The notes under the pieces: generated by a model
What the model was told of the DNA's origin: nothing
What the model saw: the letters and a program-made list of their open reading frames with translations, nothing else
The model's database searches: none
Assembly (NCBI GenBank): GCA_903813345.2
Contig: CAIIXF020000001.1
Span: 39,897,366 to 39,961,365, forward strand
Direction: 5' to 3'
DNA length: 64,000 nt
DNA from: Owenia fusiformis
Taxonomy: Eukaryota; Annelida; Polychaeta; Sabellida; Oweniidae
Part shown: one piece after another, positions 4,001-24,100 of the stretch
Layout: each line of letters starts with the position of its first letter
How positions within the stretch are numbered: the first letter of the stretch is position 1
Made by a program: the position numbers and the translations under genes

Positions 4001-7000
4001 GGCAGCCATCTTGAAAAATGGCGGCCTTTACTCATTATTTTACGATTTTTGCTCTAACTCGAAAAGTAATGGAACTTATTTTGTTCATATTTGGTATGTG
4101 AATACTTTAATCATGGCACACTGTCTCATGACACTTTTGGTAGAATGTGGCCATTTTGAAAAATGGCTGACATTTTGCTATATAATTTGTCTGTAAAAAT
4201 GCCAGCCATGGCTGTTCGATGGGATTTGCTACGCTTTGGCGTTGCTGATGTCTAGTTGAAAAAATTAGTTACCATTGATACCTATCCTCCATTTTGAAAA
4301 AGAAGACAACGTCTGTCACTAGCTATATCCCGATACTAACCATTAATACTTAAAATTCATTTTTGATTAAAACACCATTCAAAAGTTTGTTTTGAGACCC
4401 CCTCCTATGCAGGGAGGGTAATTTTATATGTACTATTACCTCCATAGGTAGGAATTTGATGAAGAATTTCATCCCAGGAGTGAGGAATTTGATTTGCATG
4501 TTCCCCGGAGCTGGGATTTTTGACTGGATTTATTTCGCCCAGAATACACTAGTGGTGTGACTCGCCACCAAAATCTCTTCTCAAGACTCGAGTAGAATGA
4601 AATTTGACGATCGATTAGACGATTTTGGCAATTTTTTTTTTAAAAATTGAGAAAATTAGAACCTGAAAAGCCGAGGCATTTGTCACTACTTACATCGACT
4701 TTTGGTTTAATGACCACTCAATGATGTAGTTTTGAACGGATTGAGTTCCGTTTTGGATGTTTTAGATGCATATTTACCGTATATTAGCAATGATTTAAGT
4801 ATTTTATGGATTTTTTCGACTTTGAAATTCCCACTTCCGTCAAAATACATATGCGCATGTGATATACCGGATATAAACAAACATAAAAAGCAATGAATAC
4901 GATTCTAATACTTTATTCTCATCAACTGACCATTAAATCGCCATCGAGCTTGTTCTTGCCTTCCCTCCCAAAAAGTTGCACTTGAGCATCCTACTTATAT
5001 TCAAAGCCGTGTCATAATTTAATATAGATGAATAAAACAGGGAGATAACCCAATCGTAAAATATCGTCATTGCATGAATTATAATGTAGGGCACTTTTGA
5101 AAACTAGGAAGCTTACGATGTGGCTTTGTACCTGCCATGTGGGGTGGTTTCACAAAAACTTTTGAATGGTGCATTACTAATGAGATATTAATCAAACTTT
5201 TGTTCAAGTAAATATTGTATGTTGAATTGCTTATAGAACGGATCGTAGAATTTGATTTGTTATTTGCAGGCTGGTAGAGCAATGACAGTCACAGAGTTGG
5301 AAACAGGCCTCCATGCACTGAGTATTGACAGAGATGTAAGTACATACCTAGATTCTTCATATCTTCATCACAAAATTAGAAAAAAACAATGTAGAGTAGG
5401 GCTCTCCCAGGGAAATATAAAGGAGGAAATACCACATTGTAACATGCTCTCCCCTACCCATTAATTAAAATAAATAAGTACATCACCATTTTCTGTTTAC
5501 TTCAGTATTCTGGCAACAACATGAATAACAAGAAGATTTGGGAAGATGAACAGAAAGCTGGGGGAGATGCTAAACCTTACTTCGGTACACCTTGGACACC
5601 CAGAGATGATACATGGGGGGTGCCCTCAGGTAAAATAACAACCATAATTCACAAAAGCTACAGAGACTACTTTATTTTCATCTAACATATGGAATCTGAA
5701 AACAACAGTGTATTTAGGTTATTTGGTTCGATCAGAAGAATGTTACAAAATCTGGTATGGTAACTAGGCTATCATTGGAAATGTATTGGACATTCTAAGA
5801 TATGCACAAAGTTATATGAACAAGAAAAGACTGTAAATTGAGAAAGCAAATCTTATCAAAAGCTTTGAGCAGTGGTGTGTCCACTATATTATCAATAAAA
5901 TAGCATCAAAACAAAAAAATGTGTTCCATTACCAATATTTGTGGGAAAATGTAGTTAATTTTGTTATGATGGTTTAACTCTCCCTCATGTAATGAATCTG
6001 GTACTTTTCAGTACTAAAAAACTTTATCCCCACCTCATGTAAAAAAAAATTTCTAAATCTGTTGAAAATTTGATGTTTATGTTTTCTGCATGAATATACT
6101 TTTGTGATTTGATTTTCTGTTACAGTATTCTTCCTTTTCAACTTTTTAGTTTTAGATTGAATCTTTTTGTTGTTGTACTTTTCTAATCTGTTAATCCAAT
6201 AGTTTAGTTAACCATACCTCGGAAGACCCTTCAAATATTGATACGATCCTAGCACCATCCACTGTATGATATACAGTATGGTTCTTCTCACATGCTCTAC
6301 TCTAACATTTCCAAATGTTTAATCTAGATGCTACTAGGTAATAACAACAGCCAAGCATATTGCTGACACATTTCAATAATAGAAATGTCAACGTAACCTC
6401 AACATCATATCAGTGCTGATCTTCTCTATATTTAGTTTTATTAACTCCTTTCTCTTGCAAAACTGTATACTAGTTAAGTAAAATCAGATCATGAGACAGT
6501 TTTGCAATAGAATGTTTTTTCTGTTTGTTTTCACCCCTACCCCTATTAACTTACAGAGCATGCTGTCTCTCACCCTATCAACATGCAGCGTAACCGTAGT
6601 TTCCCAGGAAACGACATGTCTAACGTTTTAAACCCACGTTCTTCAGAACCAGGACAGCTACATATGAACATGGTGGAGTATGTATTGGGAGGCTCTCCCA
6701 CTGGCAAAGAACTAGACTCAAGGCTTGGGCGGCGTCAACAAGGATATGTAAGCATTGTCTCTTTGTTTGATACAATTTTGTAAGATACATGTCACATGAG
6801 GCCTTACAAATTATACTTCTGTGCCAATTCAGATGTTATCCCAAAACTATTTATTCCAATTTGTGGGGCATTGTTGCCACTTTAGAACCACATTAAAAAG
6901 AAAAACCCTGATTGGTTCTACCCTTGAACAGAAGAGTAATTTGTATGGACCTGATTTTGTATCCTGAGATTAGAGTCGCTTGTTGTGCTCATCATCATGG

Positions 7001-10000
7001 CCTTCGGGTGCTAAGATTTTCTCAGATATAAACATCAAGCTAAATCCCCAGCATGGTTTATGTGACCATTCTGACGCAGAGCTTGGGATACAATAATTTC
7101 TGGGTACAAATAAATATTTTGAGCAACATTTGTTCTTTAATATCATGTAAGGAAACTCAGTTTGGAATGTTTGAAAATAAGAATGGATCTCGAAAGATGT
7201 TAACACACTGAATTCACTTTTGACATTTATGATGAAATCTTTGCAGTAAAGAATCATTAGAAAGCAATAATATCTTTATGATTGGTGATTATAATGTGCT
7301 ATTGATTAAGTATGTATGAATATTAATTGGCAGCTGTTACTATATCAGTTTGTTTTGACAGGTTTTGATTAAATTACAATGACGTTTCACTGGAAATTTT
7401 TCATGATAGTCATTTTTTATAATTTATTTTATATTTATTGATTGACATAATCTCTTACTTAAAATATGGTCATACTTACGATTAAAAGCAAGAGTTAACC
7501 AAGAATTTTATCAATCGGTATCCTTAGAATTCTATCATCTTTATATCCTGAGAAGAGTTCTGTTGATAGCAAAAATTGCACCCTCAAAATGAAATCATGC
7601 AATTGGATGCAGACAGTACAGACCAGTGTATAGTTTAGGAATCCTGTGTTTATAGTCCCTGCCTTTATATGAAGTTAAACTTGAATTGCAGCCTCCGCAA
7701 CAAGGGGAGCAGAAAGGAGAGAAGAACAGTAAGACCCCTTCACCATTTGAAGGCCAGAAGGAGGGCTCTGACCCTGAAATGAGACAAGATCATAACCAGG
7801 CCAATGGTATAGTTCAGAATGGCATGGAAGATCAGGAGGGCCAGTTTAGGTACTTAAATGAACAGACTAATATCAAATTCATAATTATTGGGTTACAATT
7901 GTCAAAATTTATGTTCATCACCAAAATTGCTGTTTCTTTGCTCACATTGGTCCATGGCATTTCCTATTCATTTGCAATAATCAGGTTGATCTTCAACAGG
8001 CTGAAAATCCTATACACCCTGTGTTTGTGTTACTATCAACAATTCAACATACTTATAAAAGGATGCCTAAGCATGCTAATTCCAGAATTGATGGAGAGTT
8101 TTAGTTTGAAATTTGTTAACAAATCACGGCCATTGTCTTTTGATAATTCATGACTATGACACCTATAAATAGTCTATACCACCTTTAAATAGTCTATGCC
8201 CTGATGTTTGATTGTCAACTTGACTTTTAGAAACCCTGGAAGTAGGCAGACCTCCCCTACTGAGGACCAGCAGCCGATGGCCATCCAGTCTCAGTTGAAT
8301 GCCAATGCACAGAAGTTCATTGCGCCCAAGAATGAGATGATTGAGGGAGGCAACAATCAGATGCCACCACAGATGATGCCACAGCAAGGCCTCCATTTAG
8401 ATGCCCAGCAGTTTGAGCCGGTGGGGATAGACCCAATGAATTTTGATTACGCTAACCAGTTCCAGGCACCATCTATGGATAGCCCTGGTAACTTCAACCC
8501 CAACATGGATTACAATCAGCAGGTAATTAAAGTGAATTAATCTAGCTCTCCCATGGTGAATAGAAAGTGAACTCTTAAATGAGTCATCCCTTACTGCCTA
8601 ACAACTGTGCCCATAGCAACCCAATAATTTTGTCAATTAACAGTCAATTAAGCTTTGCTCATTCATCACAAATATATTGAAAGAAGATAAACATTCTTAG
8701 TGTAGTCACATACACAGAATCTCAGTCTGGGATATATATTGAATTTAATATCAAAAGCCAAATTTGAGAGCAATCTTAAATTTTGAGTTTTTCTTCAGCT
8801 AATGAGGCAACAACAACAGCAGCAACAACAGCAGCAGCAACAACAGCAGCAGCAACAAATAGCTGTTCTGGCACCTCAATACGCTCTAGCACAACAACAG
8901 CAACTTGGTTAGTAATGTCAGATTTATGTAACTTTCTCAGAAATCAACTTCAGGCAAAATCCCCAGCATGGTTTATCTGTACCATTCTGACGCAGTGCTT
9001 GTGACACAATAAATACAAAACATTCTATATATTGAACCCTTCCTATATTCACATGTTTGAATGGGCCACCTTATGGTAAATATTGTAACATGAATGGTTA
9101 TGTGTACTCTTTTAATTAAGTCGCTTAGCAGTAATTTAACACTCATGCATGCATATATGTGCTTTGGAGAAAGGACACTTGCAAATTCTTTGTATGTTCA
9201 TATGTATAATATTCCCTAATCTGCTAAGCATTAAATTAATGTGTGGATATGGCATGATCTTCTTTTCTTTATCTTTGTAAGTAATATTAATAGAAAATAT
9301 ATTGTAAGGATTTTTTATTTATTTTATGATTTCTATTTTATTTTTAAAGCATACTTGCAAACCTGTAAATATGTTGTTTGTATGTCTTGATTGAATGTGT
9401 CTGGTGTAGTAGGAGTGAATGAAAATGAATGAATGTTCTTTCTGTTAAACCTGCACATCGCTCCAAAACGCAATATGTTGACATATATTGTTTTTACATT
9501 TTCAAGCTCTAATATAAAGTTTAAGTAAATAAAAAAAAATTTCTGCGTAATATCAAAGAACAATCATTTAGTTAAAAAAATAGAAAGGCGAACGCGGGAT
9601 TCGAACCCGGGCCTCCCGCGTGCTCGGCGAGGATTCTACCGCTGCACCACCGTATTATTATGTATGATGGGAGTAATTAAACGCTACTTATTTTAAATGC
9701 TATGATTCGGAAGTGACGTCACGTTCTTCATTTAGAAACCTTTCCAAAATCATATCGCCGGCTCCGATCGAAGCAAATTCAATGAAAAATCTTTAAAATG
9801 ACACATTTATCGTAAGTATTTCTACACAAGATTTGCCCCATTTGTTCATGATTCTATAATCTTTCATTAAGCTCAAAATGATAAAGTTCACCCCCGAAAC
9901 AACCCAAGATTGCGTTTCGGAGCGTAGTCCAGCTTTAAGGTGACTCATGTGTCACATATCTTGTTATTGGAGAATGATTGGTGGTCATACTGGTCTTCAC

Positions 10001-13000
10001 ATGAATATAAAATGTACAAGGCTTATTGTTTCATATAGAGAAGCCATCCATGTGTCATTCAAATACCATTTGACAGATTGGGTTAAAATTTTACAGGCTG
10101 TCGCCTTATGAAGATAGGACCTCTGCACGAGAAGGAATTTTCAATATGACTGCTTGATTCAAAATGGCCACATTTTTCTTAAAAATACAATCTTTGAGAA
10201 ATCAAATTCCAGTTTGACAGATTTAGTTTGCTGATTTCTTTGCTGATTTCTTTGCTGATACCTGAGGGGCAGAGGACTCGTAAAAATATTATCTTTGTAA
10301 CTCGAATATGAGTTGTTAGATTTGGTTCAGATTTCATGTGCTTATGCCTAGAGGCATAGGACTCTTCTCAAGAAGGAATTAAAGATGGCTACTGAATTCA
10401 AAAAAGCTGCCTTTCAAGTAATACTATCTGGTTATTATTTTTATCATGTTATGTTCAAAACGACAAGAGATATGTTGTTTTCATCGTTTAAGAATGGAGT
10501 GTTCAGTGTGAAGAGAGCTTGTGTGTACATACATATGTTCACAAAATCATTAGATGGTAGTTGTGTGTGCGCATGGCTTAAGGTGCACGTGTTCCATTTC
10601 TAGGTGTCAGTCCAAGTGCTCCCAACAGTGCTCCCTATGTAGTGAACACTCAGGACCCTTATGCAGTGGGCATACCTCTCACAGGTCAGGCGCGCAACAT
10701 GAAAGGCTCTTCATCCACATATTTCACAGCATTCAGCACTTAAAGAGCCTGTCTCTAGTTCTGCTCCTTAATAACCAAAAATGAACACAATTTTGAATTG
10801 CTAATACCAAAGTTTGATATTGGAATGGTCCTTGTCTAAGTAAAGATTTGGTCAACTATTGTACTTAACAGTCTTTTTTATGATATTTAAGAAATTCCTT
10901 ATTTGGGATAATTTTAGAGACAAAAATGATTAATTTGACATTGATTGAAAGCTGCCCCATAAAATCTACTTCACACAATTTGGATGAAAAGTCTTTTTTG
11001 CTGTAACGTGTGAATCTATAGGTAGATTTCATTGTAGAGTTGCCTGTTCACAATGGGTTGCTGCTGAAGTTTCTGTAACATTCACAAAATTAACAACTTG
11101 TGGTTGGTGCCAGGTGTTTGGATTTCGGCATCTGTAACAAATGGCATGTTAATGCCTCGTTTATGAATGTTACAGAAGCTGTTGTAACAGTTCCCACTGT
11201 GCTGTTTCACATATGCATGTACCATATAATTCATTTGCTTTGGCTTGCTTTACTAACACCAATGTACTACTTACACAGAACTTTTTTTGTATTTTTTTTA
11301 TTAATTTGAAAAGTAGCTCTCATATTTTCTCATATTGTAGGCCTGTATATTGATTGTAGTTCATGTATTACATGACATCTATAGATTCCCAAACACATTT
11401 TTATGAAGACAAAATATATGTTAGATTAAGAGCACTTATGTCCCATCTTTTAGTAGTATATGTTGCTTTGAATAGTGCACTGCTAACTAGCTTTCTTTGA
11501 TAACTCGTGTTGCTTTTATTTAAATCGATTTGTTATATAATAAACTGTAAATGTTCCATCGATTATAGAACCTCTTCAGAATACTTTTTGGTATTCCTTA
11601 ATGTGCACGAATCATTGATTATTGTTTCTCTGCATTTGAACTAGCATCCATGTCATTGTTGTCAAAATTAACACTCTTGAATACAAGAATCACAAGTTCG
11701 AGAAAATCCCCCATCTGAACCAAGGTTCTGTTCATTCTGATGCATGTTTTTGTTTGACAATGTGGTCTAAATCATGTTTGATTTATCAGCAGGTCCAACC
11801 GCAGTGGTGCCACCACAGTACTATGGTATCCAGACACCATGGGGAGTTTATCCAGCTAACATAGTACAGACACAACCTGGTAAGTAGAACATTTCAACTT
11901 TCATCTTATGTATAATTGTGCCTCAAGTTCTGTTTCTACAGTGCAGTTTCTATTATATAAGTGATAACATGTAAATGAATAAAGCTTCAATTTGATTGAG
12001 TTCTGTCGTGTTGAACTTATTTAGTGTTTTGCAATCAGTTCATTTTTTAAACTAATAATACTTTGTTTATGTCAGATTTTGTCTACAAAATAAACATTAA
12101 GATTAGACTCTCTAATTGTGCCAAGTGCAGTAGTCTTTGCGTGCTAAAACTTTCTAAGATATAAGCTAAATCCCAGCATGTTTGGTTTGTACCATTCTGA
12201 TGCAGAGCTTCACACATTTTAAACTACAAAGAGGGTTTCAACAAGATATGTGTAATCATTAAATGGAAACAACAATAGGCTGACATAGGGACCTGTGCAT
12301 ATGAATAGGATTGATATGAAATTATGCAGTATGAGAAAATTAAGATTGTCATGTTATTTATTTGATTCTCAGGTCAGCAACAGCAGCAGCAGCAACAACC
12401 ACAACAGCAACAGCAGCAAGCACAGCAGCAACAGCCAGCAATGGTGCGCAGTGGGCAAGATGGACGACCTCTAACCCCAAGTCAGCAGCAGCAACAAGAT
12501 AACGTGCAGGCAAATATACAACTTCAGCCAGGTAAAAGCTTTAATACATTACAATGTCTTGTTAAGCGTAAAAGTAAACCTTAATGTTCTTGTGTACTTT
12601 ATAATTTCAAAATGCTTACAGATTATACAGATTGACTATTAAATGAGACACTTGTGAACTTCTGTGAACCAATCATATTGCATATTTTTAAGTTGTATAA
12701 AATTACTATGTTTCATTTTCTGTTAATCTGTTTTTATTAGCAGGTGCCGGTTACCAGATCATTGCACCAGCGTACTATGACCGTAATGGGCAGCTAGTTA
12801 TGGGCAATCCCCAGGGTGTTGGTACCCCAGTGAGACTTGTCTCTCCCGCCCCCATCATTGTTAATGCAGGTGGCCAAGGTAAGAACTGCTAAAGTACTTT
12901 TGAAATAAAGTCTAAAATATGCTTCGATCAAGTTCAGTTAACTACAGTACTGAAAGAGCCAAAATAGCTGTGAGATTAGAGTCGCTGTGGTCTTTGCATC

Positions 13001-16000
13001 CTAAAATTCTCAAAAATAAACAGGCCGAATTCCCAGCAAAGTTGGCCTGTACCATTCCCAAAGTGCTTGAAATGCAAATGACCAATGCTGTGTATTTTAT
13101 CAAAACTTGTTACTTGAAACTCTGCATTATGAAATGTAATTTTAGGTAACAATGCTCTTAGGCTTCTGACCACTCAGCAACAACAGGTGCAGACCCCACC
13201 CATCAATCAGACAGCTAACTCTAACACCCAGAATACTGGCATAGGTATGTTTAACAACTGCCCATCTCTCTCTAGACTGTGCCATATGCACTCTGTTGAC
13301 AAGATACTGTGAATTTAAAGTGGCATCATGAGATGAGTTGGCACAGTTGAGGGTAAATTATTGAAAATTTGTCAAATTCATGAATAACTCTCTTGAGTTT
13401 AAGATTTGCTTGATGTGCCTGGTTGTGTGATCTTTGAGTGATAAAACATTCTCAAACAAAATGACCAAACTAATTCCCCAGCACGGTTGATCTTTACCAT
13501 TCTGATGCAGAATTCGAAGTCATCCACCTGTTCCTCTTTTTCACATTCTTTAATTCTGCAAAGATTTGTCAGAATCCGTTGCTGAATAACCATAACTATA
13601 ACTATAGGTGGCTACAATCCCAGCTCCAGCTTTGGTGGGTTTACTCCCAGTACCAGTAGCCTGTTAACTCCCTCTAGTAGTCTAGGCCTCACCTCTCAAC
13701 CTACAGGTTTCAGCAACACTGGACTAGGAGGTCTTGGTACATCAGCTGCTCCGGGATCTATTGGCAGTTTTGGAAGCTACGAGGATAATTCACCATTCAA
13801 AGGTAAGGGAATTTAATTAGAATATTAAGTAATGTTTTTTTGAAAGTTTTTTTTGCCAATAAAAGCTTCTTTCAAGATACACAATCAGTTACTAATATTT
13901 GCATGAATCTGAGATTAGAGTCGCTTGTTGTGCCTGATTATATGGCCTTTGAGTGCTAAAACTTTCTCAGAAATAAACGTCAAGCTAAATCCCCAGCATG
14001 GCTTATCTGTACCATTCTGACGCATAGCTTTGAACAAGTTCCTCAAAACTGGCTGCATCCTATACATACAGTAAACCACTTGTCTCATCTACAGATCAGC
14101 ACTATCGCAGACTTTTTACATGAAGTCACTCTTGAAAGAAGCTTTTTGGCAGTGTTTTTTGATAAAAACTGTTTGACTAATTTTCACTAACATCATATAT
14201 AAAAACGTGCTTTTCTCATACCTATTTCTAATATTTAAGTGACTGATTAGTTCAGTTTCTTGTTTTACTGCACATGTCTTTTTATTCATTCATTGGTTCA
14301 TGTTCGTACATGAAACCTCACAGTTTATTGTTTTATAATGTAAACATAACATTATGTAATGGCTTTGTCTAACACATACTGTAGTTGCAATGTCAAATGC
14401 CATGTTTCAATACAGATGTTCTTAAAGCTGAGCAACGAATGTTGACTGTTGGACATGAGGTTAAGATTTATTAATATTTTATGTAAAAGGTTGAGTTGCA
14501 ACACACAGACACATAGAATCTATTTAACCAAAAAACTGCTAATCTGTAAAATTGTATTGAACCATGGCAAGAAACATTGTAGCTGCACCATAATTGATTT
14601 GTGTTGTCTTGACGCTTATATATCTTCTTTTGTGAATTCTAGCCAGCCAAAGCACGAACCTATACAATGTTGATGATGGCTATAACTCCTGGCGTAAGTG
14701 CTTTGTATTTGTAGTCATAATATTGACATAAACAGTGCAGTTGTTAAACATTGCATTGTCGTATGAAAGGGATTGGGGACTTAGACTTTATCTAATAGTA
14801 AATACAGACAGGAATAATACGTTTAGAGTCTAAGATGGTAGTGTCGAAGCTAGTGTGTAGACTATAATGCAGTTGTAGCTTAGTTAAGAGGATTTTTATG
14901 GCCACTAACCAGATCGTTACATTCTATGAGCATTTTAGGCTCCATGTTGAGCTGATTTTAGTGTCAAATTGGTTAAAACATAAGCCTCATGCAGCCATGC
15001 TTTAGCTAATGCTGAGTAAACTCTTGATTAGGTCTGGTTAGTAACTTAGTACCAGAGTTTGTAAGGAAGGGGAACTTTCAATTTATCTGAGATTAGAGTC
15101 GCTTGTTATGCTTTGTGCAGTGGCTTATGAGTGCTAAAACTTTCTCAGACATAAACTTCTAGCTTATGCCCAGCATGACTTTTTCATAGACCTGCTGACA
15201 CCAAGCCTGGTACAAACAATTGTGGGCATTTATACATTTGTTAAGCCATTTGAACAACTAGTCTTATACTATGTAACATATGAATGGAGTATTATATGGG
15301 AAGTATTTGTGGGGATTACAGCTGATTTGACCACTTCTGTTCTGGAAAGTAATTAACTTTGTATAGAAATATAACATTTTATTCTCTCATGTGTGCCTGT
15401 TATGTAAAATTGTATGGTCAGCAATTTATAATGTGTTATATACTTTTATTTTACACTGAACACTGTACTGATTAATTATATGTGTTTGCAGGTATGTCTT
15501 CTGGTAGACGTGACTCACTGACCAAGATGCCTCAGGTGGGACAGTACTACAACAGCCTAGGTGGAGCTGCTAGCCCTGCTGGGCCCATGGGACTTGTACA
15601 ACCCCCAGGCCAGTCTATCACACCTCCCCCATCTCTAACTGGATCCAACCCAAATCTAACATTTGGAGGTAAGCTATGATTTGAGATGAAATTGGTTTTA
15701 TGAGATTAGAGTCGCTTGTTGGGCCTACTCCTGTGTCCTATGAGTGCTAAAATTTTCTCAGACATAAACTTCTAGCTTAATGCCCAGCATGACTTCTCCA
15801 TAGACCTGCTGACACCAAGCCTGTTACAACATACAAAGGTGACTAATGTATATAGATATTTATTTGTAGCCTACTGTTTCAGATGCCAAAAACTGTTTAT
15901 ATTTTTGTTTTAGGAGTTGGGAGGTTCTCAGCTGCCCCTGGTGCAGAGGTGCCCAAATATAGGAATGGTTCTTTGACATCCTCTAGCATGTTCAGCAACT

Positions 16001-19000
16001 CACTATTTACCACCCAGCCTCAGAGGATCAAGAGGTAAGTCTATCAAATAGATTTTACTCCCTATTTAAATGAAGTCTGTTTACTGTTTATGAATGCTTC
16101 AAGGTGTATATATGATAAGTTACTGGTGATGAATAATATATTTTGTAAATAATTTTAGTATATAGGTCAAGATCTGTTGTTGAGACACATGTGTTAAATC
16201 ATTTAGGCAAAAACTTCATGGAGAAAAACTAAATATAATGATAAATGATTGATTCTCAATATTGTTCATATTTACACGATTTTGTCCCCGAGAAGTTAAT
16301 TGTTATACTGACTTTGTGTGCCTTTCTGCCTAAAGCAGTTTGGATCGTGACCTCAGGGGTGGTAGGAGTCAGTTGTTGGAAGATTTTCGCAACAGTCGCA
16401 TTCCAAATCTTCAACTGAAAGATCTAGTCAACCGCGTTGTTGAGTTCTCTCAGGATCAACATGGTTCAAGGTAGCTGCTTACTGGGCACAAACATGTGGG
16501 GAGATTGTTAAAGGGGACCCCATGCAGAAAATCTCAAGATACTACATGTATATTTGTAATTATTTGCATTAGAGATTAGGTGATGTTTAAGTATGCACCA
16601 ATACATTTTTGGTTTTAATATGTAACCATCCTGAGATTAGCTGCAAAGGGTCTTCATATAGGATATTGTGTTGTAGGAACTTTTGTTAATGGAGTCTTGG
16701 ATTGTATTGTGTTGTAGTCGTTGCCCTTCTGTATGTACAGCATGTACCGCTTTCACAATTTACACATGCAAATTACAGGTCACCTATACTGTAAGAATGC
16801 AACTGCTATGATTTTGTACTGGGCTAATGTATGATTTGGTATTTATGTAAAATCTTTATAGTTGATCACATTGGCTGCATTTCTCTTAAAATATCATGTT
16901 ATCAGTGATATATTCGAGAATCATTCCATCCGCAATGCTTTTTATATAAACTTAGATGGAATTCCAATAATATATTATTTAGAATGCAGGCACGAGTTTG
17001 ACTATAAGGATTTTACAGTATGTATGTTAGGTGTTGTGTTGGTGTAAACAGACAAGAAACCAAAACATGTTCTGTGGTGTTGTAAGCAGATCTGATTTGT
17101 AGAATATATATTTTGTTGGTGTAAGGCTACTGCATGCTTGTATGCATTGTTACAGTGGGGCAGGGCTAGCGAAGGAGGTGGCAGGAGGGCGCAGTCGCTT
17201 GCTAGAAGATTTCCGCAACAATCGCATCCCCAATCTGCAGTTGAAGGACTTGCTTAATCATGTGGTAGAGTTCTCTCAGGACCAGCATGGTTCAAGGTAG
17301 GATAGATGTTAACAATAGAACATCAGTTTAGCATCCATAGGAATAAGACCACATGCTTTTGTTCTTGACATGTCAACATGGATGCTTTTTTCTTGATAGA
17401 GTCTATAATGAAGTAGGGTCTAAAAAAATTTCTAGCAAATAAATATGAAAAAACTTCCAAACATGATAAGGCAGCACTATTATACATGTAAATGTTGAAA
17501 ATTGAATAGCTTGAACTTGACATACCAAACATTGCATGATGAAAGAATAAATGCATTTTTATGTCCCTACCAAATGGTGTGTGGCCATATTGTCAGCTTA
17601 GGCATGCCTGTCTGTATATATCTGTCCATTGTATGTATGTCTGACTATTTTCTCCAAAAGCGAAAGCTTTACAGTTATCAGCTTCAAATTTTCAACTGAT
17701 TACATTTGGGTGTTCCGTATGGAAAATTTATGAAGAGTAATCCAATGGTGGTGACATGTTGAACATGTATATGCACATGTTATTAATTGGGGAGACGGTG
17801 GCGTATTACACACATTGTATAAATGCTTGATCCAGTAAATGAACGATCAAAGTACATGTAGATAAGATGCAAGAGCATGGGTAAATGTTATGGCACAATT
17901 TCTTTTTTGTTTCATGTTGTATTGTAGCATAATGAGTAGCTTGGAACACCAATGCTTTATGTGTGGGTCTTATCTTAATTCATGTTTGTGTATAAACTTA
18001 GCTCCAAACTTATTTTAAAACACTTTGATATTTCTCAAAATAAAATTAAATTGTCAATGTTAACTTGCATGTTAATTTTCTAAAAATTACTAAGATACAA
18101 AAATGATAATTTTCTTTACTATTAACAATTTAACCTGTTTTTATCACATCATTCATCCCTATCCTTGTTAGAATGTTCAAGCAGACAAATATCCCATGTA
18201 TCTTGTCTTTCAAACTCATTGGTAACCATTTCCACTGATCTCTTAACATTATTAACATTTCACGATTCTGAATCTACCTATACCCCATAACATCAACATG
18301 CTACCTGTTTTAATCGATTGCTCATCCACAATGAAGAAATGAATCTTATATGAACAACTTCTGTATTCTAGATTCATCCAGCAGAAACTAGAGCGTGCTA
18401 CTCCCTCAGAGAAAACCATGGTGTTTGGAGAGATCCTGACAGCCGCCTATAGTCTCATGACTGACGTCTTTGGCAATTATGTCATCCAGAAGTTCTTTGA
18501 GTTTGGTACTCCTGAGCAGAAACAAACGCTTGCTCAGAGAGTACGAGGTCATGTGCTACCACTGGCTCTACAGATGTATGGTTGCAGAGTTATACAGAAG
18601 GCCCTGGAGTCTATCCCACCAGAGATGCAGGTACATATTCTCATTATATAAGTAGATTTCATGAATATTTCTGGGATTAGGGTCGCTTGTAGCACATCAG
18701 GCTGTGGGCTAATGTGTGCCTAAGATTTCTTCGACATGAATTTCTAGCTTAATGCCCAGCATGACCTCTACATACACATGCTGACACCAAACCTGATAAA
18801 TGATATTCCAAATTGAAACTTACGATGTTAAATCAGTGGCTTTTTTCTTTTGCCCATTTTCATTGTAATCACAAAAATAGGAACAGATCCTAGATACTGG
18901 ATCAAAGATTAGGCTTTATAAATCTGGTTGATATAAACATGAACTACATAGGTATTTATATTGAAACAATAAATATATTATTGCCATGCATTATGTTGTG

Positions 19001-21192
19001 TTGTAGGTTGAGATTGTGAAGGAGCTAGATGGACACGTATTGAAGTGTGTCAAAGATCAGAATGGTAACCATGTGGTACAGAAATGTATAGAGTGTGTAG
19101 AACCAGTGCACCTCCAGTTCCTAATAGACGCTTTCCAGGGACAGGTAGTAAGGCTATAATTTTTTTATTCCACTATCTTGTTAAATTACAAAGAATATTT
19201 AGGAGTACTTTAATATGTTGTATAATCATAATTTAATAAATAAATATAATGACTGAATGGATTCTAAAACTTAATGACCAATCCACCAATTATAACTGAT
19301 TTTTTCTAATTGCAGGTTTTCACACTGTCTACTCACCCATACGGCTGCAGAGTAATCCAGCGCATATTGGAACACTGTTCCCCTGAACAGACTGAGCCAA
19401 TACTTGCTGAAATGCATGACCAGACAGAGCGTCTAGTGCAGGACCAATATGGCAATTATGTCATCCAGCATGTACTTGAACATGGCAGACCAGAGGACAA
19501 GAGCAAAATTGTTGCAGAGCTGAGAGGAAAGATCCTTGTGCTGAGTCAGCATAAGTTTGCAAGGTATAAAAATTGAAATAATATCTGGCTGTCTTAAGTA
19601 TTTCAATATTCCTATTTTCTTTGTTATAGAAAATTAAAACGTCATGTAACATAAAAATCTTTAGGTTTTGTCTTTAAAACAATTTTTCAATAATAATGTA
19701 ACTAATAATTATTCTGAGATTAGAGTCGCTTGTTGCGCCTTGTACAGTGGCCCATGAGTGCTAAAACTTTCTCAGACATAAACTTCTAGCTTAATGCCCA
19801 GCATGACTTCTCCATACACATGCTGACACCAAGCCTGATACAAATCTATAAGATGAACTCGATAGAGGAATTATCTGACATTCTCTCAAATTTCTTCTTT
19901 CTCGTAAAGGTCATATTTCTAGCCATGTGCATTTCTGTGTTGTAAATAAATGTATGCCCTTGATAAGATTTTCTCAGAAAGATGTTTTAATATATATATA
20001 TTTTTTTTAGTAATGTGGTTGAGAACTGTGTTGCCCACTCCTCCCCACCTGAGAGAGCCATGCTGATTGCAGAGGTCTGCAACATGAATGATGGGTAAGC
20101 ACCTTTTCAATACTTTCTAACATTACTCTGTAAAGCCATTCAGATACATTTCAAATATGCGTGTAAAAGCAAACGATTATCGAACAATATTCAGACATGA
20201 CAGTGCTCTAATTGAATTTCTCAACCAATCAAAATGCAGCATAGCTAAAAAAGGTTCTCTATTTCTCCATACATGCATGACTATGCTCTATTGAATCATC
20301 CAGGTATCTATTATTATATATTGTGACGTCCCACTACCTATGAGTGGCGAAAATAACAGCAAGTTTGATTATTTTATGGAGCCCAATTCTCTGAACAATG
20401 TTTTCATTTTCGTTATGTTTGAATCGGAATAAATAATGATAGGCCATTCGATATGGTGAAATTATACACTCGTTGGACAGAAAATCAGTACAAATGCACT
20501 CACCTTCGGTTGATTCTTTGTTCGACATTCTGTCCAACTCATGCTGAATTTCACCATATTGAATGGCCTATGCAAATATTTATTCCTTAAATAATAATTG
20601 TAGTATTTCAAAGAGGAATGGCTTTATTGGTGAATTAATTAACACTTCTCATGCTTGATTCTGTTCTATCCTGTTCTCACTTCACATTTACAAATAAACA
20701 GTTGTAACATTCATGAATAAGTATAAATATAAAATCATCTCAGTGTTTAGTGATTTTTTATTCAAATAAAAATTGTTTATACAAATTTGTAATTTTGATC
20801 ACATTAATTTGTTGTTTGGCTTCAATAAGGTTATAAAGTAGAAGCAAATGCTTAAATTTCTCTGTTAACATTTCGAGTGAATCTATCCACCTAACATTAC
20901 TGCATCTTCCTGCAGTGCATTGTGAATCAGTAATGTCTTGCACATTTTCAGTCCCCACAGTGCCCTCTACACAATGATGAAGGACCAGTTTGCCAACTAC
21001 GTCGTGCAGAAGATGATTGATGTCGCAGAACCACCCCAGCGAAAGATCCTCATGCACAAGATCCGACCACATGTGGCTACATTGCGTAAATACACATACG
21101 GCAAGCACATCCTGGCAAAGTTGGAGAAATTCTTCATGAAAAACCAGACGGATCTTGGCCCCATTGGAATGCCACCGAATGGCATGCCTTAG
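1059..21192 (+). CDS. PUM: Pumilio-family RNA-binding translational repressor (PUM1/PUM2 orthologue)
   Basis: A cytoplasmic PUF protein that binds UGUANAUA in mRNA 3' UTRs and represses translation or promotes decay. Exons: 1059-1253, 5270-5335, 5506-5629, 6557-6747, 7692-7849, 8231-8522, 8799-8907, 10604-10684, 11793-11879, 12373-12531, 12744-12878, 13146-13244, 13608-13802, 14643-14693, 15492-15668, 15914-16034, then 16339-16470 or 17156-17296, 18372-18630, 19007-19144, 19316-19563, 20011-20094, 20952-21192. All junctions keep phase and give 1113 or 1116 residues, between human PUM2 and PUM1 in length. N-terminal Pumilio landmarks are [31 protein letters not shown] and TPPPSL. The eight PUF repeats carry SR-Q, NY-Q, CR-Q, NH-Q, CR-Q, NY-Q, SN-E and NY-Q, the standard code for UGUANAUA. 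The ATG is the first long-frame start after the 1024 acceptor. Confidence 0.96.
1281..1724 (+). mobile_element. MITE family 1, copy 1
   Basis: A nonautonomous element of about 440 bp. Its ends are inverted copies of CCAATAACNCAGATGCGAGT. It contains a recognisable core (GTGATGTCATATTTGAAATC near the left end, GACCCGAACGAGCCACCTGG near the right). It overlaps the donor end of the first Pumilio coding exon and lies in intron 1. Related copies are at 26320-26740, 35783-36158, 55840-56250 and 57518-58068. No coding capacity is seen. Confidence 0.75.
1962..2390 (+). mobile_element. MITE family 2, truncated copy
   Basis: The left end TTATCCCGTGCCAGGACTAT and several hundred following bases match the complete element at 43086-43626, including CGGCAGAACGGGAACATTTT. 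Similarity fades after about 2390, so the right inverted end is missing or decayed. Confidence 0.6.
3082..4225 (+). mobile_element. ATCCCATCGAAC repeat family, copy A (interrupted)
   Basis: The ends are inverted: ATCCCATCGAAC at the left and GTTCGATGGGAT at the right. It contains degenerate GGAC/GTCC repeats near the left end and modules rich in AAAATGGCGGCC. An hAT-type element interrupts it at 3220-3797. A related copy in opposite orientation is at 27246-28232, and a fragment is at 25870-26002. Confidence 0.7.
3220..3797. mobile_element. Nonautonomous hAT-type element nested in another repeat
   Basis: Its ends are TAGTGGTGTCAA and the complement of TAGAGGTGCCAA, typical of hAT elements. 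It is flanked by a perfect 8 bp target duplication ACACATAC at 3212-3219 and 3798-3805. Subterminal regions are rich in AACCGGTTAA. Internally a segment of about 134 bp starting AGTAAGCGCGGGAAAGCAAT is present twice (from 3421 and from 3555). There is no transposase frame. Confidence 0.85.
6964..7095 (+). ncRNA. Intronic H/ACA snoRNA, copy 1 (subfamily A)
   Basis: It lies in the Pumilio intron 6748-7691 on the sense strand. CTGAGA at the 5' end pairs with TCTCAG, closing hairpin 1. ATATAA follows as an H box (ANANNA). CAAGCT pairs with AGCTTG to close hairpin 2, whose upper stem is CAG..ATGGT with ACCAT..CTG. An ACA box follows at 7090-7092, 3 nt from the end and 14 nt below the upper stem. 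This is the standard geometry of an H/ACA pseudouridylation guide. The fold was drawn by eye. Confidence 0.8.
8799..8907 (+). repeat. PUM: Polyglutamine tract in a Pumilio exon
   Basis: A run of CAA and CAG codons encodes about 17 consecutive glutamines before [16 protein letters not shown] second Q-rich exon at 12373-12531 encodes several shorter runs ahead of [11 protein letters not shown]. The CAA/CAG mixture makes the tract less slippage-prone than pure CAG. Such tracts are normal in the N-terminal region of Pumilio proteins, where they promote assembly and repression. Length variation between individuals is possible. Confidence 0.85.
8918..9009 (+). ncRNA. Intronic H/ACA snoRNA, copy 2 (5' hairpin degraded)
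   Basis: It lies near the start of the Pumilio intron 8908-10603. The 3' half is well kept: TTTCTCAG, H box AAATCA, lower stem CAGGCA with TGCTTG (one G-U pair), upper stem CAG..ATGGT with ACCAT..CTG, and an ACA at 9004-9006. The 5' strand of hairpin 1 is absent, because the copy begins almost at the donor site. It is probably a half-snoRNA or a dying copy. Confidence 0.55.
9445..9938. mobile_element. piggyBac-type MITE flanked by TTAA
   Basis: Both ends begin at TTAA (9445-9448 and 9935-9938). About 30 bp of inverted terminal sequence share CGCTCC(A/G)AAACGCAAT. It is roughly 490 bp with no coding capacity and carries the tRNA-like sequence at 9589-9655. It lies in the Pumilio intron 8908-10603. 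Confidence 0.65.
9589..9655 (-). pseudogene. tRNA-Gly-like sequence, probably SINE-derived or a pseudo-tRNA
   Basis: On the minus strand, A box TGGTGCAGCGG and B box GGTTCGAATCC are intact and the anticodon stem resembles tRNA-Gly. The base before the anticodon is G rather than the invariant U33, the loop reads CGAGCAC, and the acceptor strands do not pair. A T-rich run follows, which could stop RNA polymerase III. It is unlikely to make a working tRNA. Confidence 0.65.
10085..10390. repeat. Duplicated dispersed-repeat segment in a Pumilio intron
   Basis: Two related passages, one with ATAGGACCTCTGCACGAGAA and the other with CATAGGACTCTTCTCAAGAA followed by GGAATT, lie about 240 bp apart. 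No element boundaries were recognised. The rest of the intron up to 10603 shows nothing. Confidence 0.35.
12097..12219 (+). ncRNA. Intronic H/ACA snoRNA, copy 3 (subfamily A, diverged)
   Basis: It lies in the Pumilio intron 11880-12372. The hairpin 1 closing stem is changed but roughly kept (TTAAGA with TCTAAG), and the 3' pocket strand CTAAAACTT is identical to other copies. The H box is ATATAA. Hairpin 2 keeps CCCAGCATG...GTACCATTCTGATGCAGAGCTT. An ACA follows 14 nt below the upper stem. Confidence 0.6.
12971..13075 (+). ncRNA. Intronic H/ACA snoRNA, copy 4 (degenerate)
   Basis: It lies in the Pumilio intron 12879-13145. TGAGATTAGAGTCGCT at the 5' end is nearly perfect and TGAGA pairs with TCTCA. 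The apical part of hairpin 1 is shortened. The H box is AAATAA. Hairpin 2 is altered and no ACA is found at the expected place, so this is probably a relic. Confidence 0.4.
13392..13525 (+). ncRNA. Intronic H/ACA snoRNA, copy 5 (degenerate)
   Basis: It lies in the Pumilio intron 13245-13607. The closing stem reads TTGAG with CTCAA, a paired change from the usual TGAGA with TCTCA. The H box is ACAAAA, and the hairpin 2 upper stem is CAG..CGGT with ACCAT..CTG. The ACA position reads GTC, so the 3' end looks broken although the 5' domain is paired. Confidence 0.4.
13909..14039 (+). ncRNA. Intronic H/ACA snoRNA, copy 6 (subfamily A, intact)
   Basis: It lies in the Pumilio intron 13803-14642. This is the best-preserved subfamily A copy: CTGAGA with TCTCAG; pocket strands TTAGAGT and CTAAAACTT; an H box (AAATAA); lower stem CAAGCTA with TAGCTTTG; upper stem CAG..ATGG with CCAT..CTG; and ACA at 14034-14036, 3 nt from the end. 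Confidence 0.8.
14643..14693 (+). CDS. PUM: Pumilio 51-nt microexon, a likely cassette
   Basis: A TTCTAG acceptor at 14642 and a GTAAGT donor at 14694 bound 17 codons reading [16 protein letters not shown] between the Gly-Ser-rich exon and the exon with RRDSLTKMP. The flanking introns are both phase 1, so skipping it leaves the frame intact. It sits in the low-complexity repressor region, where vertebrate Pumilio transcripts also vary. Use as a cassette is inferred from its size and phase. Confidence 0.65.
15087..15217 (+). ncRNA. Intronic H/ACA snoRNA, copy 7 (subfamily B)
   Basis: It lies in the Pumilio intron 14694-15491. Hairpin 1 is as in subfamily A (CTGAGA with TCTCAG; pockets TTAGAGT and CTAAAACTT), and the H box is ACATAA. 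Hairpin 2 differs: AGCTT with AAGC, CAGCA with TGCTG, and pocket strand ACACC. ACA is at 15212-15214, 3 nt from the end. Confidence 0.78.
15700..15831 (+). ncRNA. Intronic H/ACA snoRNA, copy 8 (subfamily B)
   Basis: It lies in the short Pumilio intron 15669-15913, filling more than half of it and ending about 80 nt before the acceptor. TGAGA pairs with TCTCA. The H box is ACATAA. Hairpin 2 is nearly identical to copies 7 and 10, with ACA at 15826-15828. Confidence 0.78.
16339..16470 (+). CDS. PUM: Pumilio alternative exon 17a (start of PUF repeat 1, first version)
   Basis: 132 nt, entered and left in phase 2, with a CAG acceptor and a GTAGCT donor. It encodes a short linker, then [16 protein letters not shown] and on to EFSQDQHGS, which is the cap and first helix of PUF repeat 1, including the start of its RNA-contacting SR pair. 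A second exon at 17156-17296 encodes the same segment. Either can splice from the exon ending 16034 to the exon at 18372. The residues that differ from the other version (S, V, R for N, L, H) lie off the SR..Q triplet. No stop or frame damage is seen. Confidence 0.85.
17156..17296 (+). CDS. PUM: Pumilio alternative exon 17b (start of PUF repeat 1, second version)
   Basis: 141 nt, also phase 2 in and out, with a TACAG acceptor and a GTAGGA donor. It encodes a linker containing [15 protein letters not shown], then [20 protein letters not shown]. This version is closer to vertebrate Pumilio (FRNNR). From LLEDF to the exon end, codons differing from exon 17a are synonymous in about 14 cases and amino-acid changing in only 3, so both copies look selected. 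The 685 bp between them is long enough for both to be spliced in. That would keep frame and duplicate the repeat start, so strict mutual exclusion cannot be read from the sequence. Confidence 0.88.
18671..18801 (+). ncRNA. Intronic H/ACA snoRNA, copy 9 (subfamily B, diverged)
   Basis: It lies in the Pumilio intron 18631-19006. Hairpin 1 has drifted (CTGGGATTAGGGTCGCTTGT). Hairpin 2 keeps TAGCTTAATGCCCAGCATGA and the CTGCTG-like strand. The 3' box reads ATA instead of ACA. This may be a weak or dead copy. Confidence 0.5.
19714..19845 (+). ncRNA. Intronic H/ACA snoRNA, copy 10 (subfamily B, intact)
   Basis: It lies in the Pumilio intron 19564-20010. CTGAGA pairs with TCTCAG, with pockets TTAGAGT and CTAAAACTT and H box ACATAA. 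Hairpin 2 has CAGCA with TGCTG and GCTT with AAGC. ACA is at 19840-19842, 3 nt from the end. It closely matches copies 7 and 8. Confidence 0.8.
20426..20586. mobile_element. Short palindromic MITE in the last Pumilio intron
   Basis: Arms of about 57 bp pair across a short spacer: GGAATAAATA..GGCCATTCGATATGGTGAAA at the left and TTTCACCATATTGAATGGCC..ATTTATTCC at the right, with GTTGGACAGAA and TTCTGTCCAAC innermost. No target duplication was recognised. Confidence 0.65.
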
Positions 21193-24100
21193 TGAGGGCC
21201 CTTGATTGGAAATAACGAACATTTGGATTATAGACCCCCTGCTTTGAATTATGGACTGCATATTGCTTCAAAGATAATTGAATAATATACTTAATACTAA
21301 TTAAATTACAATATTGAATATAACTTATTTAAGTCGTGGCCTTTAATATAATGGTTAATATTAGGGATGTTGATGTAAATTCACACAATGAAATTCTATT
21401 GAGTTCTATTTAAAAAAAATTGAGCATATGTTGTAACGCTGCATGCATTGTGACATTTTATATTATTAAGGTGTTGGGAAAATATTTTCACCTTATGGAA
21501 TGTATCAACCATGACTTAACATCTGTGAGACATGGTCTATTGGAGCATGGTGTTCCACTCAAATACACACTTGGTAAATGTGCGCCAGCATAGCCACTAA
21601 CCAGCGAGTTATTCAAGCTTATCAGTGGCACTTTGGTAAGCTGCAGTAACTGTCCAGTTAATCTGAATTACCATATCCTCATAAAAAATCACTTAAATGT
21701 CAACATTATTCGATGAAGTTTCAGGTATTGTGAAAGAATAATTGTATTTATAATGAAGTAAATAACAAAATGCTATTTCCATTACATATCAGAAGTGAAT
21801 GGCATTGTTAAATGCTGAATATTGAATGTTAGGTCAACATCATGGAATACTGTATATTGTAAAGCATTAGTGTATAGATGGCCTTCATCTGATCTCTTCT
21901 TATATCTATCTGTGTGTAAAGTGTAAATAAAACCTTGTAAGTATGTGTAAGATACAGTGATCATTTGTATAGTGATTCAACAGATAAACATTTTGTATAA
22001 ATCTTAACTCATTCATTGTGGATAAACTAACGACAATCTCACAACTTCAAAAACTTAACTCTGTAATCTCTAACAATCTGTATGTTTTGTTCGTAAATGC
22101 CTTTCTCATCCTCTTTAAACTCTCTTTGGGTCATTAATTGGCATCGCTATGTTATTTTGTACATGTATTAAGATATAGTAATGGGACATACTTTTGATAC
22201 AAATTAGTGTAAATTTTGTACATTTAAAATTATTTTTGCTGGTGTATAGCTGGAAAGGTCCATACGTTATACTCTTCCAGTTTCCAGTTTGGAACTGGAG
22301 AGTTGTTCTGTGGAGTCGATACCATTTGTAAGTAAGATGAACATAAACGCAATATTTTCAGTCAAAAATTGTAAACTTTGTACAGTATGGACAGTCAGTG
22401 TGTAAGATATGTAAAAATTGGAAGAATTTCTTTACAGCCAGCATTCACATGCATAAAGAAAAGATATTCTCGCTTATTTGATGTACATTTAGTATATATG
22501 TTGGCCCTTCATCTGAGAGCATACTTGGCTCCCATAGACCCTTTCTGAATATGCCCATGACCCTGGTAAATCAAGGGAAAGCGTGTATCATGGTTGATAA
22601 AGGGAGGTTTTTATTAATAATACTTTTTGTATCTATCTCTTGTATAATCCTATATTCTGTATTTATGCTAGAGCAAAACTTGTAAATGTGTGGTGTGCTA
22701 TATGCTGTAGATTATTCTATGTACAGATTGGTCGGTGCCAATAACAAAGCCAGGCACGTATATCCTATATACCCATATATAGATATAGGATGGATTTCTC
22801 ATTGAATTCCTTGTGTATATGTAAAATTATTGATGCATAAAATTTGAAAATATTTGTGTACAAATTCGAGCCTTTGTTAAATAGCTGTAGAAATGTGGAT
22901 ATTTTGAACCTGCTTCAAATTATTGTATAGGCCTGTATTAAAGTCTCTAAACTATTACATAGATGTAAAGTGTATAAACCAACAAATGTAATCATAGTCA
23001 TGTAAATTGTAAACATATCCTTATAATTATTCACTAATGTATAGAAATAATGTGACTCTTAATCAGAATGCAGCACATTTACTTTGTCGGGGAACTTGAA
23101 TGTATGTTCGTATGAGGAGATGAATATAAGTTGAAATGTGTTGAATATTTACTGTACACAAGTGGTACAAAACTGTAAAATATGTGAATAATTTGAGTAG
23201 AATTGTAAAAAGACTGAGAATATAAAATAAGATGCTATAATATTATATTGCTGTAGATAAATCACCGTCTGTAAATGTGCTGGATTTTGATTAGCTGTCA
23301 GGTGATGGAATTGTTAGGTAGTAATGTTTAATTAATTATTAATTAATTGTATGGTACATAATGGTTGAGCTGTAGTTACACTGTATATGAAATGTTGTGC
23401 CCAATCATGCATTCATATTCCCTACTAACTTGATAGAAAGTGTATGTCGCTTTGGGGGCAGATTTTCAACATTATTATTTTTTGTTGTAGTTTATTTGAG
23501 GTGGGATTAATGGGCTACAGTTGACGATTAATAAAAAACCTTTGAAAGTCATGTAAATCCCAAACTTGCATCAATTCAACCATTTGAAACAAGAATGATG
23601 CTTTTTGTAACTCAGACTGCTTGGTTTTTGTTATACACTCCCAATTTTGGACAAATTGTCTCTACATTACATAGTGTTTGAATGTGCTGAGGACAGAATT
23701 GTAAAATCTATTGGGCATCTTGAACCTCTGATGTACCAGTGTTGACCGAGTTTATTCTTTGTCAGTCTGCAGTTTGACAAGGTTTCATTCTACTTGAGTT
23801 CTCCCACCTTTGTATATTTAAAAGTATGTTTCAAATTGCAAATAATTATGCGGTATATAAATTATCCAAATATTGTACATTCTGTATGAAATACAAAACT
23901 CTGTATATTCGAAGATTTGCTATAAAACAACCTGTACATTTGTCTAGACAGTTTTTACATCACACTGAACATAGCTTGAACATAGTCACAAACTGTAAAA
24001 ATCTGAAACTGTACATTAAACACTTTGTATTAAATTTTAATTGTATAAATGACTTGTGAATAGCAGAGAAAGTTTATCATGGATATTTTTTCTTAAGTCA

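Follow-up and report, generated by a model that had tools for sequence, protein, structure and literature searches.

The Pumilio gene and its intronic elements

The window, the whole stretch of 64 kb of Owenia fusiformis DNA that we have analyzed, contains a Pumilio gene (Table 1). We have modelled it with AG and GT borders at the exons and a single reading frame up to the stop codon, and the PUF part of the product has 8 PUF repeats (E 4e-95). The introns contain repeats of up to ~132 nt. A covariance model (R1) identified ten copies of an element of ~133 nt (E <= 0.0053), all on the plus strand and each in a separate one of the 19 modelled introns, and a search of both strands of the 64 kb with R1 gave no further copy. 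The first-pass annotation had claimed that ten Pumilio introns each hold a single copy in the same orientation, and this is what we have found. R1 was trained on 10 copies, 6 from the window and 4 from contig C11; c2, c4, c5 and c6 were outside the training set, so only these four are independent matches. Over ten sources, with 141,253 bases, R1 gave 14 copies, the ten of the window and four in source L001 of contig C11, again all on the plus strand. Five of the ten window copies keep boxes and pockets, c10 is decaying and the remaining four are decayed. An eleventh candidate picked by eye, c3 (11625-11762), was not recovered by R1 and was dropped.

Table 1. Coordinates in the window of the Pumilio gene, its exon 12 and the copies of the ~133-nt element.
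Feature	Position	Strand	Description
Pumilio host gene	6557..21194	+	20 exons modelled in one frame within the window; stop at 21194
Pumilio exon 12	15492..15668	+	frame-broken copies of this exon on contig C11
c1	6962..7093	+	subfamily A, boxes and 5' pocket kept, intron 1
c2	8913..9011	+	subfamily A, most of hairpin 1 deleted, intron 4
c4	12093..12221	+	subfamily A, decayed, intron 6
c5	12966..13059	+	A-like by eye, decayed, intron 8; R1 26.5 bits, E 0.0053
c6	13389..13526	+	subfamily A, decayed, intron 9
c7	13907..14039	+	subfamily A, boxes and 5' pocket kept, intron 10
c8	15085..15217	+	subfamily B, boxes and both pockets, intron 11; best 3' pocket (4+8)
c9	15698..15831	+	subfamily B, boxes and both pockets, intron 12; MFE fold not two-hairpin
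c10	18670..18802	+	subfamily B, decaying (ACA lost, 5' pocket changed), intron 16
c11	19712..19845	+	subfamily B, boxes and both pockets, intron 18

Other features of the gene can be mentioned here. Where the PUF domain begins, the exons at 16336-16470 and 17156-17296 duplicate each other in tandem (76% over 117 nt). Each of them keeps the frame and has a length divisible by 3, and the pair are candidate mutually exclusive exons. Tandem splice acceptors of the NAGNAG type lie at 11790 and 12741, ahead of exons 6 and 8. Intron 19 has a MITE-like inverted repeat (20439-20482 / 20528-20571) with arms of 44 nt that are 84% complementary. On the minus strand of intron 4 a stretch at 9590-9655 resembles tRNA-Gly by eye; ARAGORN reported no tRNA for it, and it is perhaps a tRNA-derived SINE.

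Distribution in the genome

Two DNA searches of the 498-Mb genome found 10 and 11 places, all of them in the Pumilio cluster and in a second cluster on contig C11. A genome-wide search with the Rfam model RF00334 (SNORA3), in which 42 of 20050 candidates were scored, gave 6 matches, again in these two clusters; it missed c7, c8 and c11, although a scan of the window gives them 28 to 35.5 bits. Beyond Pumilio, copies were found only on C11 (n=4), in searches of the 498 Mb that were non-exhaustive and included some stretches read as N. This confinement supports the local duplication that had been suggested for the array. A mobile repeat, either a MITE or a snoRNA-derived retroposon, lying by chance in Pumilio introns would agree with the lack of common flanks around the ten copies, where the only flank matches were overlaps of neighbouring test windows, and spread by retrotransposition is thought likely for mammalian H/ACA RNAs in the sections available of PMC8178906. 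However, only two loci were found in 498 Mb, the orientation is single throughout, the 30-nt flanks show by eye neither an A-tail nor a target duplication, and a Pumilio exon travels with the element at the second locus. We consider a mobile repeat very improbable; the view that a sense, one-per-intron layout is not that of a MITE is supported, the non-exhaustive genome searches having found no scattered copies.

A probable H/ACA RNA of the SNORA3/ceN100 type

At the gathering threshold, Rfam gave no match in the window. With a relaxed threshold, SNORA3 (RF00334) matched c11, c9, c7, c1 and c8 at full length (35.5-28 bits, E 8e-4 to 0.05). Its scores with the four copies on C11 were 27-36.9 bits (E 2.6e-4 to 0.06). 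The matches in these nine copies span positions 1-131 of the model (E 2.6e-4 to 0.06), with scores that all remain below gathering, at most 36.9 versus 51 bits, and the relaxed genome-wide search with RF00334 also gives below-cut-off signals in 6 of 14 control genomes. The nematode family ceN100 (RF01607) matched c8, c9 and c7, and its scores reach at most 34.9 bits, versus a gathering threshold of 80.

By inspection, the H box ANANNA is found in c1, c7, c8, c9 and c11. Among the ten full-length copies (six of the window and four of C11) nine have the ACA, with c10 reading AAA, and the boxes are kept in the C11 copies, m1-m4, too. The distance from pocket to ACA, also by inspection, is 14 nt in c7 and in the ACA-bearing copies of subfamily B, and 16 nt in c1. 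The good-copy anatomy of H box, ACA and pocket described in the first-pass annotation applies to c1, c7, c8, c9 and c11 and does not extend to the other five window copies.

Of the 10 full-length copies, 7 have a minimum free energy (MFE) fold with two hairpins; the folds of c8, c9 and c10 are different. A hand-drawn two-hairpin structure has 86.7% of its cells paired over the ten full-length copies, versus 21.5-43% when it is slid; the lower stem at the 3' pocket of subfamily B is poor (71% of cells paired, all ten copies). Covariation is thin, with 2 of 33 pairs changed on both sides and 28 of 500 shuffles as high. The z-scores of folding energy for 13 folded sequences went from -2.29 to +0.85, so that most copies fold no better than shuffled sequence, an outcome that had been named in advance as evidence against a snoRNA. 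Folding energy is a weak test and the z-scores are uninformative here. With mostly unremarkable z-scores and thin covariation, the anatomy rests on boxes, Rfam matches and pockets rather than on energy. These, namely the boxes, the two-hairpin anatomy, the weak full-length matches to SNORA3 and ceN100 and the fit of the 5' pocket given below, support the H/ACA identity. Judged by its sequence, the element is a SNORA3/ceN100-like box H/ACA RNA that probably corresponds to ACA3/SNORA3 of vertebrates and ceN100 of nematodes, and the copies in Pumilio introns are probably small RNAs that guide rRNA modification.

Pairing of the pockets with 28S rRNA

The sequence scanned for targets was L004 4081-4780, 700 nt of a truncated 28S copy on contig C10, together with degenerate 18S; L004 4231-4645 is a match of the Rfam LSU model and the rest of the 700 nt is 28S-like by eye. 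In the rDNA source L013, 5000 letters read N, and a search for 28S in viral contigs gave none. At L004 3000-4100, a retroelement-like sequence ends at TAGCCAAATGCC of 28S and is followed by the truncated 28S and 18S; we take this end point to be the R2 site.

On the 28S fragment, the pocket lying ~14 nt above the ACA can pair around a target uridine. The 5' pocket fits one uridine, AGC-UU-GACUCUAG, with 3+9 pairs, and this site was found by 9 of the 10 full-length copies, c10 giving none. Shuffled pockets were equally good as the consensus 5' pocket in 5 of 2000 cases, and shuffled rRNAs in 0 of 500. The SNORA3 consensus pairs with the same site, also with 3+9 pairs, and has no 3' target in the 28S fragment. 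The 3' pocket of subfamily B fits GGUG-UA-GCAUAAG, 39 nt downstream of the first site. All 8 B copies, which are related and not independent, found it, with 4+4 pairs in general and 4+8 in c8. Taken alone the B 3' pocket is weak, with equally good results from 54 of 2000 shuffled pockets and from 24 of 500 shuffled rRNAs; for c8 the figures are 2 of 2000 and 1 of 500. The ceN100 consensus pairs with both sites, with 3+6 and 6+6 pairs.

The chicken table of PMC2653536 lists ACA3-type RNAs for 28S-3409 (7+3, 5') and 28S-3448 (5+4, 3'), 39 nt apart, located in introns 3 and 2 of RPL27A. In yeast 25S, the portion available of PMC8307265 gives Psi2416 (snR11), Um2417 and Um2421, and we infer that these correspond to AGC-UU-GACUCUAG, where the spacings of the three U fit. 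A SNORA3 target was sought in the accessible parts of PMC8522698, PMC12288042 and PMC11028025, and none was found there. The resemblance to SNORA3/SNORA45 (ACA3) thus includes the 5' pocket with its 28S site, a match over the whole model and the location in introns. The differences are the score below gathering and the host, Pumilio in O. fusiformis and RPL27A (introns 2 and 3) in chicken. Chicken lists the two sites, with the same spacing of 39 nt, under two RNAs, whereas the B copies pair with both in one RNA. In this the B copies resemble the C. elegans ceN100 consensus, although their ceN100 scores are far below gathering.

Subfamilies A and B

The division into two subfamilies near 14 kb, subfamily A on one side and B on the other, was recovered with a tree support of 1.000 for the whole element and for hairpin 2, while hairpin 1 separates them uncleanly; c5 was left out of the tree. 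The first-pass annotation had proposed that hairpin 2 was retargeted, and this did not find support. Subfamily A would in that case have moved to a new RNA through hairpin 2. The A copies do have a distinct 3' pocket in common, with a best fit in the 28S fragment, AGCG-UU-GGAUU with 3+5 pairs, that is the same in c1 and c7. However, 85 of 2000 shuffled pockets and 33 of 500 shuffled rRNAs were equally good, so that the A 3' pocket has no significant target in the fragment and retargeting is not demonstrated. The SNORA3 consensus likewise has no 3' target in the fragment, which makes a loss in A as likely as retargeting; we consider retargeting quite unlikely. The A site was also compared with chicken 28S-3912 (snR34/U65); the distance matched but the positions of neighbouring sites disagree, and this assignment was rejected.

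Chicken ACA3 and nematode ceN100 have a second site, and it is this one that hairpin 2 of subfamily B fits, so that by comparison of these RNAs the dual guide looks ancestral. Should subfamily B, like ceN100, guide at both sites, their assignment to two separate RNAs in chicken may reflect a split that is derived.

A second locus with copies of Pumilio exon 12

Source L001 of contig C11 contains four tandem units, each formed by a frame-broken copy of Pumilio exon 12 followed by a B-type copy of the element, and the units alternate with an snR77-like C/D snoRNA. The exon copies are 68.8 to 71.2% identical to exon 12 and have deletions of 12, 1 and 2 nt in common. In the four units the borders of the exon remnant, AG and GTAAGC, can still be read, and the GTAAGC donor precedes the B-type copy. 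Third codon positions have slightly more of the substitutions relative to exon 12 (16-20 versus 11-17 at the other two).

The C11 copies of the element are 87.6-90.6% identical to c8 and c11, versus 84.7-86.1% to c9, which lies in the intron of exon 12 itself, and the intron sequence on either side of c9 gives no alignment with the C11 units (34-44%). Therefore c9 may have drifted or undergone conversion; the alternative is that the block that was copied was not exactly exon 12 with its present intron.

Conservation within the four units is very uneven. Over ungapped columns, 7 of 206 are variable in the snoRNAs versus 139 of 596 in the rest (P 1e-12). Outside the snoRNAs, the exon remnants are less variable than the introns (35 of 219 versus 104 of 377, P 0.001). 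Retained splicing would have this effect, as might other causes. It seems from these sequences that one Pumilio exon was copied elsewhere together with the small RNA, and that the coding part then decayed with the small RNA almost unchanged.

These data bear on a scenario in which only one or two copies are functional, all others, with the C11 set among them, being neutral duplicates of recent origin. The clear decay of four of the ten window copies, the ongoing loss of boxes in c10 and the young age of the C11 tandem repeats would all be expected of such a graveyard. Against it, conservation in the C11 units is far higher in the snoRNAs than elsewhere, and c1, c7, c8, c9, c11 and m1-m4 retain their boxes and 5' pocket. 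We regard this scenario as unlikely, though not negligible.

The best explanation overall, with a probability of about 0.82, is an H/ACA guide cut from introns, multiplied within its gene and later copied to C11. An intact copy would be expressed with Pumilio, processed from the spliced intron and bound by dyskerin as a box H/ACA guide RNA. Its 5' pocket would direct pseudouridylation of the conserved 28S uridine in AGC-UU-GACUCUAG, and in subfamily B the 3' pocket would direct a second one 39 nt downstream, in GGUG-UA-GCAUAAG. As for the order of events, duplication inside Pumilio would have multiplied the RNA, with redundant copies now decaying; a block of exon 12 plus a B-type copy would later have been copied to C11 and repeated in tandem; and there it would have been retained in a noncoding snoRNA host, with erosion of its coding sequence.

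RPL13A remnants and a C/D snoRNA around the second locus

We have found a similar situation ~12 kb upstream of the C11 units, where SNORD33-type RNAs occur together with decayed exons of RPL13A that have lost 27 and 22 nt by deletion and gained 1 nt by insertion (L008 9236-9676, L005 119-783). Three of these RNAs are above the Rfam gathering threshold. Compared with the intact RPL13A gene (L011), they are 96.3 to 98.8% identical, versus 71.4, 78.7 and 85.5% for the exon remnants. Counter to this pattern, a SNORD34-like RNA by the RPL13A remnants reaches only 85.7% identity, which does not exceed that of the nearest exon.

The C/D RNA of the C11 units has a terminal stem of the GATTCT/AGAATC type. 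It has 13 matches in the genome, 12 on C11 and one on contig C9 (L009 4977), downstream of an RPL18-like exon. The locus at 26.091-26.110 Mb of C11 lies just downstream of a DBHS gene (L007, with RRM and NOPS domains) that has the same RNA in three introns, at 1912, 2212 and 3313. From this distribution, the snR77-like C/D RNA appears to be another moving snoRNA. Its guide has a 10-nt match to 18S at CGGTAATTCC; there are two further matches of 10 nt, and 80 of 1000 shuffles had a match of at least 10 nt in the 2900-nt rDNA stretch. The CGGTAATTCC match being not distinctive, we base the snR77 label on the location ahead of a putative D' box, on sub-threshold matches of Rfam snoR77Y (E 0.018 to 0.63) and on the snR77 row of the chicken table as available in PMC2653536. 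SNORD34 scores similarly to snoR77Y on this RNA. Remnants of DBHS exons were also sought in the C11 cluster, and tblastn gave only two weak matches rich in glycine and methionine (L008 563-679, E 0.06 and 0.07), which we have attributed to the DBHS gene itself, as its C-terminal exons.

We lean slightly towards reading the locus at 26.091-26.110 Mb as a young noncoding snoRNA host composed of exon-intron modules from at least two coding hosts, Pumilio and RPL13A. Its transcription is putative, and this locus is the stronger result of the analysis.

Comparison with known snoRNA hosts

Hosting snoRNAs had been suggested as a recurring role of Pumilio. In chicken, introns 9, 12 and 21 of PUM1 contain three isoforms of the C/D snoRNA HBII-251/U103 (table of PMC2653536), so that hosting does recur in Pumilio. 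However, the chicken RNAs are box C/D and have another target, while those of O. fusiformis Pumilio are H/ACA; since the RNA class differs, inheritance of the role is not demonstrated.

Intragenic duplication and partial duplication of hosts are already known for snoRNAs, as described in the available parts of PMC2653536 and PMC8178906. In human, 7.3% of H/ACA families keep all their expressed members in one host (same portion of PMC8178906). In O. fusiformis the H/ACA copies multiplied within one gene and then, seemingly, by segmental duplication. Our partial search of the literature found no report of a Pumilio H/ACA array or of a snoRNA host assembled from coding hosts.

The C11 locus resembles hosts of the GAS5 type in that the snoRNAs are its conserved part and are placed in putative introns, which alternate with short, frame-broken remnants of exons. 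It differs from them in that the remnants are recognizable as pieces of Pumilio and RPL13A, and in that its transcription is putative. Exons of lncRNAs that host snoRNAs are poorly conserved, according to the part available of PMC11405852, and the origin of such hosts is therefore hard to see. On C11 the donor exons can still be recognized and the donors are still in the same genome. If our reading is true, this locus pictures the birth of GAS5-like hosts, in which coding exons erode while splice sites and snoRNAs stay.
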